A DNA stretch of 33,737 nt from Acidimicrobiales bacterium (GTDB taxonomy: Bacteria; Actinomycetota; Acidimicrobiia; Acidimicrobiales; AC-9), in assembly GCA_036491125.1 (NCBI GenBank), contig DASXCO010000034.1, positions 1 to 33,737 of the forward strand, written 5' to 3'. This document shows positions 22,499 to 28,827 of the stretch, in pieces; positions within the stretch are counted from its first letter, which is position 1; each line of letters begins with the position of its first letter. Under the pieces are notes generated by a model. It saw nothing but the letters and a program-made list of their open reading frames with translations, did no database searches and was not told the origin of the DNA. The position numbers and the translations under genes are program-made.

Positions 22499-22951
22499 AT
22501 GCGTATCACCAGATCCTCTGCGGATCCCGCAGCCGACGCGCTGGATCCCTTCCTCGCCCGACAGCGGGAGCTGCTGGCGCGAGCCCGCGTGAGCAGCGAG
22601 ACCCAGCGGGAGGAGGGTGAGGCGAGCCTGGCCACGCTCGCCGAGGGCATCGGGCCTGACGAGGTCCAGTTCGACGACGAGTCGGGCGAGGGTGACAGCA
22701 CGGGCGTGGCGAGAGACCGCGACCGCACGGTCGTCGAGCTGGCCCGGGCGACGATCGACGACGTCGACCGGGCCCTGGCCAGGATCGATGACGGCACGTA
22801 CGGCCGATGTGACCACTGTGGCGAGGCGATCGACCGGGCGCGACTCGAGGCGCTGCCGGCCGCCCACCTGTGCCTGGACTGCAAGGGCAACCCTCGCGGT
22901 GGCGGGCTCTCGGCCCTCATTCGTCACCGACCCCCGAACAGCCGGCGGTGA
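22499..22951 (+). CDS. TraR/DksA-family zinc-finger protein
   Basis: 150 aa. An N-terminal helical hairpin (FLARQRELLARARVSSETQREEG, then ELARATIDDVDRALARIDDGTYG) is followed by a four-cysteine zinc knuckle CDHCGEAI and CLDCKG. This is the DksA/TraR layout; DksA proteins reach into the RNA polymerase secondary channel and alter promoter use, and the DxxDxA tip can be variable. ATG 22499 with AAGGCGG upstream. It begins a tight run of five genes (gaps of 10 and 9 nt, then 4-nt overlaps) that ends with formate dehydrogenase, so it may tune that operon or simply share its message. Confidence 0.9.
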   Translation: MRITRSSADPAADALDPFLARQRELLARARVSSETQREEGEASLATLAEGIGPDEVQFDDESGEGDSTGVARDRDRTVVELARATIDDVDRALARIDDGTYGRCDHCGEAIDRARLEALPAAHLCLDCKGNPRGGGLSALIRHRPPNSRR

Positions 22952-22961
22952 CCGGCTCGCC

Positions 22962-23837
22962 GTGGGGGACATCCTCGTCGGCACGGCGTCGTGGACGGAT
23001 CGGTCCCTCATCAAGTCCGGTTGGTACCCACCGGGTGTGAGCTCGGCCGAGGCCAGGCTCGAGCATTACGCGTCCCGGTTTCCGCTCGTAGAGGTGGACT
23101 CGACCTACTACTTCCCACCGGCCTTCGATGTGGCCCGGCGGTGGACCGAGCGGACCCCCGATCACTTCGTGTTCAACGTCAAGGCCTTCTCGCTGTTCAC
23201 CCAGCATCCGACGGTGGCGGAGGCGATCCCGCGCGATCTTCCGCGGCCGGCCGACAAGAAGCGCCTCTACCCCAAGGATCTCGAGCCGGGCGTCGTCGAC
23301 GAGATGTGGGAGCGCTTCCGCTCGGCGCTGGACCCCCTCCACCAGGCGGGCAAGCTCGGCGCTCTGCTGTTCCAGTTCCCTCCCTGGTTCACATTGAAAA
23401 GCGCGAACAAGCGCTACGTCCTCGATTGCGTCCAGCGGGCGCGACCCCTTCGGATCTGCGTCGAGTTCCGCAACCAGAGCTGGCTGCACGAGGACAACCG
23501 AGCCGAGACGATCGATCTCCTCGAGGGCTACGACATCGCCTACGTGTGCGTCGACATGCCCCAAGGCTTCCGGAGCTCGGTCCCGCCGGTGGTGATGGCC
23601 ACCTCGGATCTCGGTGTCGTCCGCTTCCACGGCCACAACGACGCCGAGTGGGAGAGCGGCTCGGTGCAACGCCGCTTCGCCTACCGTTACACCGAGGCGG
23701 AGCTCGAGGACTGGGTTCCCCGGCTGCGGGAGCTCTCGGACCGGACGAGCACCACCCACGTGCTCATGAACAACTGTCATGACGACTGGGCTCAACGCAA
23801 TGGCGAGGAGCTGTCCCGCTTGCTCGAGGAGTCATAG
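22962..23837 (+). CDS. DUF72 (YecE-like) protein
   Basis: 291 aa from GTG 22962. The opening ILVGTASWTDRSLIKSGWYPPG, then YASRFPLVEVDSTYY and FVFNVKAFSLFT are the standard DUF72 TIM-barrel signatures, and GALLFQFPPWF, VEFRNQSW and VRFHGHN follow in the right order. The family has no established reaction. The gene starts 10 nt after the zinc-finger gene and ends 9 nt before the formate dehydrogenase alpha gene, in the same operon. Confidence 0.93.
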   Translation: MGDILVGTASWTDRSLIKSGWYPPGVSSAEARLEHYASRFPLVEVDSTYYFPPAFDVARRWTERTPDHFVFNVKAFSLFTQHPTVAEAIPRDLPRPADKKRLYPKDLEPGVVDEMWERFRSALDPLHQAGKLGALLFQFPPWFTLKSANKRYVLDCVQRARPLRICVEFRNQSWLHEDNRAETIDLLEGYDIAYVCVDMPQGFRSSVPPVVMATSDLGVVRFHGHNDAEWESGSVQRRFAYRYTEAELEDWVPRLRELSDRTSTTHVLMNNCHDDWAQRNGEELSRLLEES

Positions 23838-23846
23838 GTTGGCGAC

Positions 23847-26800
23847 GTGGTGCTGAGGTCGTGGCCGGTCGCCCGACAGGTGCTGGGCCGGGACCGGTTC
23901 GGTCGGGGTCCGGCGGCCCGATCTCCCCGCTCGGCCAACCTGGCGCCGCGGACCGCCGCCGCCCGGGATGTTGTGGGGTCGATCTGCCCCTATTGCGCGG
24001 TTGGCTGTGCCCAGCGCGTGTACGTCCGCGACGGCGTGGTCACCCAGATCGAGGGAGATCCGGACAGCCCTGTGTCGCGCGGCCGCCTGTGCCCGAAGGG
24101 CGCAGCGAGCAAGCAGCTCGTGAGCGGGCCGCTCCGTGAGCGCAAGGTCCGGTACCGCCGCCCGCACAGCAGGACGTGGGAGGACCTCGATCTCGACTCG
24201 GCGATGGACATGATCGCCGACCGGGTCATCGATACGCGCCGACGGTCATGGGAGTGGGAGGAGGGAGGCAGGCGCACGCGCCGCACCATGGCCATCGCCA
24301 GCCTTGGCGGGGCGACGCTCGACAACGAGGAGAACTACCTCATCAAGAAGCTCTACACGGCGCTCGGGGCGCTGCAGATAGAGAACCAGGCCCGCATATG
24401 ACACTCCGCCACGGTCCCCGGTCTGGGGACCTCGTTCGGCCGCGGTGGGGCGACCACCTTCCAACAGGATCTCCAGCACTCGGACTGCATCGTGATCGAG
24501 GGCTCGAACATGGCCGAGTGCCACCCGGTCGGGTTCCAGTGGGTGATGGAGGCCAAGTCGCGAGGGGCCACGATCATCAGCGTGGATCCGCGCTACACCC
24601 GTACCAGCGCGCTGGCCGATGTCTACGTGCCTCTGCGGCCCGGCAGCGACATCGCCTTCCTCGGCGGGCTCATCAACTACGTGCTGAGCGAGGGCAAGGA
24701 GCTGCGCGATTACGTGGCGGCCTACACGAACGCAGCCACCATCGTTGGCGAGGACTTCCTTGACACCGAGGACCTGGACGGTGTCTTCTCCGGCCTCGAA
24801 CCGGAGCGGCGCTCCTACGACTCGTCGAGCTGGCAGTACGACGGCGCGATGGTTCTCGCCTCGGCGGGCCAGCGTGAGCAGTGGCGGCTGGCGAGTGACC
24901 AGCCGGGGACCCATCAGCACGGCAGCCACGGGGCGGCGCTGCCGGGGGGCCGAGGTGAGCGGGACGACACGCTCACCCATCCCCGATGCGTCTTCCAGCT
25001 CCTCAAGCGCCACTACGGCCGCTATACGCCCGAGATGGTCGAGCAGGTGTGCGGGATTCCGCCCGCCCAGTTCTTCGAGGTGGCCCGGGCGATCACGGAC
25101 AACTCCACCCGCGACCGCACCACGGCCTTCGCGTACTCGGTCGGGTGGACCCAGCACACAGTGGGTGTGCAGTACATCCGGGCCGCATCGGTGCTCCAGC
25201 TGCTCCTCGGCAACATCGGGCGGCCGGGGGGCGGGATCCTCGCCTTGCGGGGCCACGCCAGCATCCAGGGTTCGACCGATATCCCCACGCTCTACGACCT
25301 GCTTCCCGGCTACATCCCCATGCCCCACGCCCACGACGAGCAGGCGCTCGATCAATTCGTCGAGGCCAACGCGGCCCGGACCGGGTACTGGGGGAACATG
25401 CGCGCCTACCTCGTCAGCCTGCTCAAGGCGTACTGGGGTGGAGCAGCCACCCCAGAGAACGACTTCTGTTTCGACTACCTGCCCCGCGTCACGGGCGACC
25501 ACAGCACCTATCAGACCGTGCAGTCCCAGATCGACGGCCGCGTCAAGGGCTACTTCCTCGTCGGCGAGAACCCGGCCGTCGGATCGGCCAACGGCAAGAT
25601 GCAACGGCTCGGCCTAGCCAACCTGGACTGGCTGGTCGTGCGCGACCTCACCATGATCGAGAGCGCCACGTGGTGGCTGGACGGCCCCGAGATCGAGACC
25701 GGCGAGCTGCGCTCCGAGGACATCGCCACCGAGGTCTTCTTCCTCCCGGCGGCTGCCCACACCGAGAAGGACGGAAGCTTCACCAACACCCAACGCATGC
25801 TGCAATGGCACCACCAGGCGGTGGAGCCGCCCGACGATGCCCGCAGCGACCTGTGGTTCTACTACCACCTCGGGCGGATCATCAGGGAGAAGCTGGCCGG
25901 CTCCACCGACGAGGCTGATCGTCCTCTTCTCGACCTGGCGTGGGACTATCCGACCGAGGGCCGGCTGGCCGAGCCCAGCGCTGAGGCCGTCCTGGCCGAG
26001 ATCAACGGGCGGGACGCCGGGGGCCGGCCGCTGTCTGCGTTCACCCAGCTAGCCGACGACGGGTCGACGGCGTGCGGCTGCTGGATCTACTGCGGCTGCT
26101 ACGCCGACGGCGTGAACCAGACGGCTCGGCGCAAGTCGGGCGCCGAGCAGTCGTGGGTGGCCCCCGAGTGGGGCTGGGCGTGGCCCGCAAACCGGCGGCT
26201 GCTCTACAACCGGGCCTCGGCCGATCCTGCCGGGCGCCCGTGGAGTGATCGCAAGGCGTACGTCTGGTGGGACGCGCAACAGGGTGAGTGGACCGGACAC
26301 GACGTCGCCGACTTCCCCAGGACGACGCCGCCCGACCACGAGCCGGAGCCCGGTGCGGTGGCCGAGCACGCGCTCGGCGGGCGCGACCCGTTTGTCATGC
26401 AAGCCGACGGCAAAGGCTGGCTCTACGCGCCGGCGGGCCTGACCGATGGTCCGTTTCCCACCCACTACGAGCCGCAGGAGTCACCATTCGACAATCCCCT
26501 GTACGGCCATCAGTGCAACCCGGTCCGCCAGGTCTTCGCCCGGCGGCACAACCGCTATCACCCGAGCGGCTCCAGCCCCGGCGCCGAGGTGTTCCCCTAC
26601 GCGGTGACGACCTACCGGCTGACGGAGCATCACACCGCCGGCGGGATGAGCAGGGCGCTGCCTTATCTGTCCGAGCTGCAGCCGGAGATGTTCTGCGAGG
26701 TCAGCCCCGAGCTCGCCGCCGAGCGCGGCCTCGAGCACATGGGCTGGGCAACGATCATCAGCGCCCGTACGGCGATCGAGGCCCGGGTCATGGTCACGGA

Positions 26801-27089
26801 TCGAGTGGCGTCCCTGAACGTCGGCGGCCGCCGGCTCCAGCAGGTGGGCTTGCCATACCACTGGGGTGGCAACGGGCTCAGCAAGGGGGACTCGGCCAAC
26901 GATCTGCTTCCGGTCGTCCTCGACTCCAACGTGCACATCCAGGAGGCCAAGGCGGCCACGTGTGACATCCGGGCCGGCCGGCGCCCGCGCGGGCCGGCAC
27001 TGCTGGAGCTGGTCGAGTCCTACCGGGACCGCGCCGGCATTGGGCCGGAGACCGGCATCGAGCCGGGCGCGAGTGGGGAGGAGCCGTGA
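23847..27089 (+). CDS. fdhA: Formate dehydrogenase alpha subunit with selenocysteine (UGA read through)
   Basis: Molybdenum or tungsten bis-MGD enzyme that oxidises formate to CO2. 1,080 residues counting selenocysteine 185 at the TGA 24399-24401; both sides of the TGA are in the same frame and continue FDH homology: QARI-U-HSATVPGLGTSFGRGG. The usual U-H pair is intact. The N-terminal [4Fe-4S] motif is CPYCAVGC plus LCPKGA (Cys47, 50, 54, 82). A hairpin resembling a SECIS lies just after the TGA. GTG 23847 is forced because an in-frame stop of the preceding gene lies 9 nt upstream; no twin-arginine signal peptide is present, so this subunit probably stays in the cytoplasm. Followed by the beta gene with a GTGA overlap. 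Confidence 0.93.
24399..24431 (+). promoter_or_regulatory. SECIS-like hairpin with selenocysteine UGA
   Basis: UGA occupies 24399-24401. GGUCCCC (24413-24419) and GGGGACC (24425-24431) form a perfect 7-bp stem with loop GGUCU (24420-24424). The loop begins 18 nt after the UGA, the loop sequence and spacing I recall for E. coli fdhF, and it codes for the same Gly-Leu. Unlike E. coli there is no bulged U in the stem. It is read as the SelB binding site, inferred from structure and position. Confidence 0.8.
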
Positions 27090-27895
27090 GCACGCTCGAC
27101 CCTGCCGCGGGCGCCGGTTACGACGACCCGCCGGCGCGAGTCGGTTTCTTCACCGACACGAGCGTGTGCATCGGGTGCAAGGCGTGCGAGGTCGCGTGCA
27201 AGGAGTGGAACGGCGTGCCGGCCAGGGGCCGGGAGCTCCTCGGCAGCTCCTACGACAACACCGGCGGTCTCGGGGCGGACACCTGGCGACACGTGGCGTT
27301 CATCGAGCAGCGCCGACCCGGCACCGGTGACCTCAGGTGGCTCATGTCGTCGGACGTGTGCAAGCACTGCACCCGCGCCGCGTGCCTCGACGTATGTCCC
27401 ACCGGCGCGCTGTTCCGCACCGAGCTCGGCACCGTGGTGGTCCAGGAAGATGTCTGCAACGGCTGCGGGTACTGCATCCCCGCCTGTCCCTACGGGGTGA
27501 TCGACCAGCGCCGGGATGACGGTCGGGCCTGGAAGTGCACACTCTGCTACGACCGGCTCCGCGACCACGCCGAACCGGCGTGCTCCCAGGCCTGCCCGAC
27601 CAACTCGATCCAGTTCGGACCGCTCGATGAGCTGCGAGCGCGGGCTGCCGGGCGCTTGGAACAGCTCCACGAGCTCGGGGTCGACGACGCCCGCCTCTAC
27701 GGCCACGATCCCGACGACGGAGTTGGCGGGGCGGGGGCGTTCTTCCTTCTGCTCGATCGGCCCGAGGTCTACGGCCTGCCGCCGGACCCGGTCGTGACCA
27801 CCCGCGACCTTCCGAAGATGTGGGCCGCAGCGGCCGCTGCGGCGCTGACGCTCGTGGGGAGTGCCGTGGCCGCCTTCGCCGGGGGGCGCCGGTGA
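27086..27895 (+). CDS. fdhB: Formate dehydrogenase beta subunit, four [4Fe-4S] ferredoxin-type
   Basis: 269-aa electron-transfer subunit between the catalytic and membrane subunits. Four cluster motifs are seen: CIGCKACEVACKEW, CKHCTRAACLDVCPTG, CNGCGYCIPACPYG and CTLCYDRL with ACSQACPT. A C-terminal hydrophobic helix (residues ~243-263, WAAAAAAALTLVGSAVAAFAG) would anchor it, like FdnH of FDH-N. It lacks any export signal. GTG start overlaps the alpha-subunit stop (GTGA, 27086-27089), and its own stop overlaps the next start in the same way. Confidence 0.94.
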   Translation: MSTLDPAAGAGYDDPPARVGFFTDTSVCIGCKACEVACKEWNGVPARGRELLGSSYDNTGGLGADTWRHVAFIEQRRPGTGDLRWLMSSDVCKHCTRAACLDVCPTGALFRTELGTVVVQEDVCNGCGYCIPACPYGVIDQRRDDGRAWKCTLCYDRLRDHAEPACSQACPTNSIQFGPLDELRARAAGRLEQLHELGVDDARLYGHDPDDGVGGAGAFFLLLDRPEVYGLPPDPVVTTRDLPKMWAAAAAAALTLVGSAVAAFAGGRR

Positions 27896-28827
27896 GGGAG
27901 CCCGAGCTCGTCCCCGATCTCGAACCGACCTCCTACTACGGGCGGCCCGTCATCAAGGCGCCCGTGTGGAAGTGGGCCGTACCGGCGTACTTCTTCGCGG
28001 GCGGTCTGGCCGGCGCCTCGTCGCTGCTGGCTGCCGGCGCCGGCGTCACCGGCAATCGGGTCCTGGCCGGACGGGCCCGGTTGACGGCGCTCGGCGCCAT
28101 CTCCGCCGGAGCGGCCCTGCTGATAGAGGACCTGGGCCGGCCCGAGCGCTTCCGGAACATGTTGCGGGTGGCCAAACCGACCTCCCCGATGAGCGTCGGC
28201 AGCTGGCTGCTGACCCTGTACGGACCCGCGGCGGGGCTGGCCGCGTTGGGGGAGGCCCTCGGCTTCCCGCGCCCCGTGCGTCGCCTCGCCGCATCGCTGG
28301 CTGCCCTCACCGGACCCGCCGTGGCCACCTACACGGCGGTGCTCATCGCGGACACCGCGGTTCCGGTCTGGCACGAGGCCCGGAGGGAGCTGCCCTTCGT
28401 CTTCGGAGGCGCCGCCGCGTCCGCGGCAGGCGGCGCCGCCATGGTGACGACGCCGCCGGCGCACGCCGGTCCGGCGCGGGTGTTCGCCCTGCTCGGAGCG
28501 GCCACGGAGCTGGGAGCGTTCCAGCTCGCCCGCCGGCGCCTGGGTGAGGTTGGCGAGGTCTACGGCGAGGGCCGCGCCGGGGCTTTGACACGGCTGGCCG
28601 TCGGGCTCACCGGGGCGGGCGCTGCCGTGTCGGGCCTGGGTGGGAGGCGGCGGCTGGCCGCCGCCTTGGGCGGAGCAATGCTGATCGGCGGCTCGCTGGC
28701 CAGCCGGTTCGCCGTGCTCGATGCCGGGGTCCAGTCGGCCCAGCAGCCCGCGTCCACCATCGGGCCTCAGCGGCGCGGGCTGGAGCAAAATGGTGCCCGC
28801 GCCGTCGCCGATCCCACGACTCGGTAG
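27892..28827 (+). CDS. NrfD-type membrane subunit of formate dehydrogenase
   Basis: 311 aa, about eight hydrophobic helices, of the NrfD/PsrC type that exchanges electrons with quinones. It opens REPELVPDLEPTSYYGRPVIKAPVWKW and YFFAGGLAGASSLLAAGA, then has IEDLGRPERFRNMLRVAKPTSPMSVGSW (shown by its ends), the hallmark D-L-x-R-P-x-R segment, and VLIADTAVPVWHEAR. No heme-ligand pattern as in FdnI cytochrome b is seen. GTG 27892 overlaps the beta stop. It completes an alpha-beta-NrfD formate dehydrogenase. The tail beyond residue ~285 is Arg/Gln-rich. Confidence 0.93.
   Translation: MREPELVPDLEPTSYYGRPVIKAPVWKWAVPAYFFAGGLAGASSLLAAGAGVTGNRVLAGRARLTALGAISAGAALLIEDLGRPERFRNMLRVAKPTSPMSVGSWLLTLYGPAAGLAALGEALGFPRPVRRLAASLAALTGPAVATYTAVLIADTAVPVWHEARRELPFVFGGAAASAAGGAAMVTTPPAHAGPARVFALLGAATELGAFQLARRRLGEVGEVYGEGRAGALTRLAVGLTGAGAAVSGLGGRRRLAAALGGAMLIGGSLASRFAVLDAGVQSAQQPASTIGPQRRGLEQNGARAVADPTTR

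Follow-up and report, generated by a model that had tools for sequence, protein, structure and literature searches.

Background

Formate dehydrogenase (FDH) alpha is one of the two selenoproteins found most widely in bacteria (PMC5029168). The way in which bacterial SelB and Sec-tRNA-Sec insert selenocysteine (Sec) at a UGA codon is established knowledge, summarised in PMC1794560. Among actinomycetes, Actinomycetospora chiangmaiensis DSM 45062 possesses three FDHs that contain Sec, whose alpha subunits are 1078, 1089 and 640 residues long; its removal of formate depends on added selenite, and SelA, SelB and SelD were detected in its proteome (PMC7176365). In Geodermatophilaceae a Sec-containing FDH is decoded from UAG by a tRNA-Sec with a CUA anticodon (PMC5330540 and its reference 56). 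Our literature search found no paper joining selenoprotein, formate dehydrogenase and Acidimicrobiia.

Here we describe an FDH locus in a stretch of 33,737 nucleotides (the window) from an Acidimicrobiales bacterium. It resembles the A. chiangmaiensis system in that the host is an actinomycete, Sec is predicted at the metal ligand of the alpha subunit and the genes form an alpha-beta-gamma cluster (PMC7176365). In length, compared by description, the predicted protein of 1080 residues is near FDH1 (FdhA1, 1078 residues) and FDH2 (1089 residues). In A. chiangmaiensis, however, the listing of the FDH1 cluster includes selA and selB, whereas here they lie on a separate contig (C76). With the Geodermatophilaceae FDH the gene shares homology and the same hairpin; codon and anticodon differ, being TAG and CUA there but TGA and UCA here. 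With FdnG and FdhF of E. coli it shares the place of Sec and a gap of 11 nucleotides between the UGA and the stem. The features are collected in Table 1.

Table 1. Features of the formate dehydrogenase locus, in positions of the window
Feature	Position	Strand	Remarks
Formate dehydrogenase alpha subunit, FdnG-like	23847..27089	+	1080 residues with UGA as Sec; GTG start, TGA stop
In-frame UGA, predicted Sec185	24399..24401	+	Counterpart of Sec140 in E. coli fdhF and of Sec196 in fdnG
Predicted bacterial SECIS hairpin, conserved 7-pair core	24414..24430	+	Pairs 24414-24430 to 24420-24424; loop G-U-C 24421-24423
FDH beta subunit, ferredoxin-type [4Fe-4S] protein	27086..27895	+	TIGR01582 184.6 bits (below cut-off 334.7); Fer4_11
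NrfD-type membrane subunit	27892..28827	+	PF03916 45.7 bits on ORF 27820-28827

The gene and its in-frame UGA

The first-pass annotation, made from the letters alone, held that a TGA splits an otherwise continuous FDH alpha frame at the exact Sec position, followed by His. This is borne out by translation and alignment. Between the GTG at 23847 and the terminal TGA at 27087-27089 the sole internal stop is the TGA at 24399-24401. It falls at residue 185 in the context ARI-U-HS, and its counterpart in both fdhF and fdnG is ARV-U-HG, where the E. coli proteins carry selenocysteine.

The identity of the protein is clear from profile searches. The alpha subunit scores 1959.8 bits against the NCBIfam model NF041513 (formate_DH_Act; cut-off 1400), with residues 2-1061 matched to positions 2-1066 of the 1067 in the model. 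It also scores 923.2 bits against TIGR01553 (formate dehydrogenase-N alpha), above the cut-off, and matches Pfam PF00384, PF04879 and PF01568. Its best match among solved structures is E. coli FdnG (PDB 1kqf, 708 bits). FdnG is exported by the Tat pathway, whereas no twin-arginine motif was seen in the first 45 residues of the present alpha subunit.

The beta gene overlaps the stop codon of the alpha gene, and its product, judged by eye, probably bears a C-terminal membrane helix. The NrfD-type subunit encoded next is probably FDH gamma; its start at GTG 27892, one of three candidates, is a guess. On the other side, a gene for a DUF72 protein (22617-23837) ends 9 bases upstream of the FDH start.

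The hairpin downstream of the UGA

The arms GGTCCCC (24413-24419) and GGGGACC (24425-24431) enclose GGTCT (24420-24424) and form a perfect stem of 7 bp, exactly the stem and loop that had been noticed at first. The distance then given, a stem starting 18 nucleotides after the UGA, has to be corrected: the stem begins 11 nucleotides past the UGA, at 24413, and 18 nucleotides is where the loop begins. The likeness to E. coli fdhF in loop and spacing, also proposed at first, is right, as NC_000913.3 has the same 11-nucleotide gap and GGTCT at the same distance.

We number the hairpin from the U of UGA as 1. Counted in this way, G23, U24, C25 and U26 are as far from the UGA as they are in E. coli fdhF and fdnG (NC_000913.3). 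A pair between base 22 and U26 that closes a GUC loop is possible in fdnG and likewise in the present sequence. The outermost pair, 24413-24431, forms in this sequence and is not kept by most homologues; the innermost, 24420-24424, is always G.U or A-U among them. Thus a stem-loop lies directly 3' of the UGA with its apical G-U at the E. coli distance. The bulged U17 of the E. coli type is missing. In the fdhF element U17 is bulged, and in the E. coli elements it is left unpaired once the remaining stem has formed, whereas here A31 stands opposite. To our knowledge, not every bacterial SECIS needs such a bulge.

The folding energy of 24399-24436 is -15.0 kcal/mol. Since its z is about -1, which is unremarkable, and longer segments favoured other folds, we do not use energy as evidence. 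Searches with Rfam at gathering thresholds gave no match anywhere in the window. The placement of the element is more telling. We examined every TGA triplet of the window, 666 over the two strands. Complete pairing of the element in register with G23-U24, seven pairs out of seven, occurs only after the one at 24399-24401, and the TGA that ends the FDH gene has one of the seven. Across the 3.83-Mb genome the pattern of the element occurs twice, each time within an FDH gene, and a control search with the reversed pattern gave no matches there.

Comparison with homologues

An alignment to homologues had been proposed as a check on the first reading. We aligned eighty loci from named genomes at the site, together with matches from 99 genomes, nearly all of the same order. 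The orthologues mostly have TGA at the Sec position; four from Geodermatophilaceae have TAG, and seven have TGC or TGT. The site counts that follow are over the 68 distinct homologous Sec-type sites with TGA or TAG.

The seven pairs from 16-32 to 22-26 form at every one of these sites, and G23 and U24 never change. Pair 18-30 covaries (CG 37, UA 17, UG 10, GC 4), and its two bases are synonymous third positions of a Val codon and a Gly codon. The choice of codons there departs strongly from that in the rest of the same genes. GTT is used for Val at 27 of the 68 sites, compared with 3.2% in the same genes, and GGA for Gly at 17 compared with 6.2%; GGC, which makes up 63% of the Gly codons in these genes, is depleted to 4 sites. 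None of 500 shuffles, which ignore shared ancestry, reached either the observed pairing or the covariation score. Conservation across homologues settles that the hairpin is more than chance, and the site and its covarying hairpin together support Sec insertion.

The bulge deserves a separate comment. That no bulged U is to be seen, as the first-pass annotation remarked, holds throughout the actinomycete family: U17 faces A31 at 65 sites and G31 at the other 3, and so can pair. The invariance of U17 proves little, because a conserved Val codon has this base as its second position. We found no prior description in the literature of the absence of a bulged U17 across the actinomycete FDH family.

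The hairpin behaves differently in orthologues with a Cys codon (L072, L086, L090, L098, L099, L100 and L114). It is gone from all seven, and pair 19-29 forms in none. Residue 190 is a Pro encoded by CCC at all 68 Sec-type sites, whereas the Cys types have Ala, Val or Thr codons there. The four TAG variants, from Geodermatophilus and Blastococcus (L061, L076, L089 and L092), keep the hairpin. Being lost with Cys and kept with a Sec codon, the hairpin tracks the Sec codon and not the protein. In the tree all seven Cys types fall to the same side of one branch, and one change between Sec and Cys may account for all of them.

Could the TGA be an error of sequencing or assembly, or could the gene be a pseudogene that carries a nonsense mutation here? 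The genome is a draft of 251 contigs, in which single-base errors are possible. However, the same codon stands in independently sequenced homologues, complete genomes included, and in a second FDH gene of the host itself. Apart from this codon nothing interrupts the frame of 1080 codons, its product fits the family model from end to end, and the hairpin has been maintained alongside the UGA. We consider this explanation extremely improbable.

It could also be supposed that translation truly ends at the UGA and that 23847-24401 and 24492-27089 encode two separate proteins, which is just how a standard ORF call cuts the gene. The split would then fall at the catalytic residue, and the downstream part would start at a GTG about 30 codons on and lose conserved sequence. 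Moreover, homologues with TGC or TGT are unbroken at the site, and covariation of synonymous third positions also speaks against two proteins. There is next to no chance, in our judgement, that this is the case.

Decoding machinery in the host

If the UGA is read as Sec, the host should carry selA, selB, selC and selD, as was predicted at the outset. Family searches located all four in the same draft genome, each above its curated cut-off. SelA (406.8 bits) adjoins SelB (252.5 bits) on the contig already mentioned, and the C-terminus of SelB carries a SelB-wing_3 domain. SelD (332.7 bits, contig C64) was judged by eye to be the Cys form. The tRNA-Sec (66.3 bits, contig C153) has the anticodon UCA. 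The genome also encodes FdhD, the accessory sulfurtransferase.

Decoding of the UGA as Cys or Trp, through general reassignment of the code or near-cognate read-through in which a SECIS plays no part, has a point in its favour in the seven homologues with Cys at the site, but a dedicated UCA tRNA-Sec exists with SelA, SelB and SelD, the hairpin goes with UGA or TAG codons and disappears with Cys codons, and the FDH gene itself ends in TGA, so that UGA is not generally reassigned; this reading is scarcely credible.

Because the host has both a signalling hairpin and all of the decoding machinery, the apparent stop at 24399-24401 is almost certainly read as selenocysteine, and it would be decoded by means of the hairpin and the full set of sel products.

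Proposed mechanism and implications

What the sequences show is an in-frame UGA, a hairpin that is conserved and covaries, a full set of sel genes and the gene neighbourhood. The events themselves may be pictured as follows. SelA and SelD would produce Sec on serine-charged tRNA-Sec. SelB, with GTP and Sec-tRNA-Sec, would bind the hairpin just past the UGA, and the bound complex would deliver Sec there in place of termination. The product would be a molybdenum- or tungsten-dependent formate dehydrogenase with Sec as a ligand of the active-site metal. Its partners would be the products of the two genes that follow directly, the iron-sulfur beta subunit and the membrane subunit of NrfD type, and together they would oxidise formate and hand the electrons to the membrane. 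Incorporation of Sec is inferred, as are expression, the metal and the acceptor of the electrons.

The mechanism is well known, the enzyme family is known and the curated model NF041513 covers it, so the case is correct but ordinary. It nevertheless provides evidence that a little-studied or uncultured actinomycete uses selenocysteine. There is also a practical lesson for annotators, who should keep FDH alpha as one gene and not split it in two. Finally, the family-wide alignment gives a clear and testable picture of an actinomycete SECIS that lacks the bulged U.

A more speculative suggestion can be made about that element. The strict occurrence of Pro at residue 190 suggests that the RNA signal may dictate one residue of the protein. 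With no bulged U, a 22-26 pair that can always form around a three-base GU(C/U) loop and this apparently forced Pro, the actinomycete SelB may therefore read its element differently. It might recognise the GU loop and the fully paired stem, unlike the SelB of E. coli, though we hold this only tentatively and think it rather less probable than not.

Distribution in the order and related genes

Use of Sec had been described as patchy in Actinomycetota, and in this order it is: SelA or tRNA-Sec was found in 63 of 99 genomes sampled and neither in the other 36. The two further genomes of this genus each contain a UGA-type FDH along with SelA and tRNA-Sec. Among the 22 genomes with a UGA-type FDH, 21 have SelA or tRNA-Sec, compared with 42 of the 77 others (Fisher p 0.0003, with relatedness ignored). 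In the single exception (G080), neither SelA nor tRNA-Sec was detected; its UGA-type FDH (L120) lies on a contig of 3.9 kb (C107), and contamination or an incomplete assembly may be the reason. The sole genome with a match to a Cys-type FDH (G081) has neither SelA nor tRNA-Sec.

The second UGA-type FDH alpha gene of the host (L132:6728-9955; contig C181 of host genome G000, 48727-51957) is 69% identical to the first and has the same hairpin. A horizontal origin is a possibility here: the copy in the window groups with that of a genus mate, the second copy with metagenome-assembled genomes labelled Nocardiopsaceae.

Another FDH-like family, of about 650-720 residues (L135, L136 and L137, the frame of L136 being longer), is common in the order. 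Its members carry a single TGA in frame at the corresponding site, in the context NRT-U-HAPSV. They are roughly 30% identical and were set aside as other FDH-like proteins rather than orthologues. They may correspond to the 640-residue FdhA3, of the cytoplasmic FDH3 type, described in PMC7176365.
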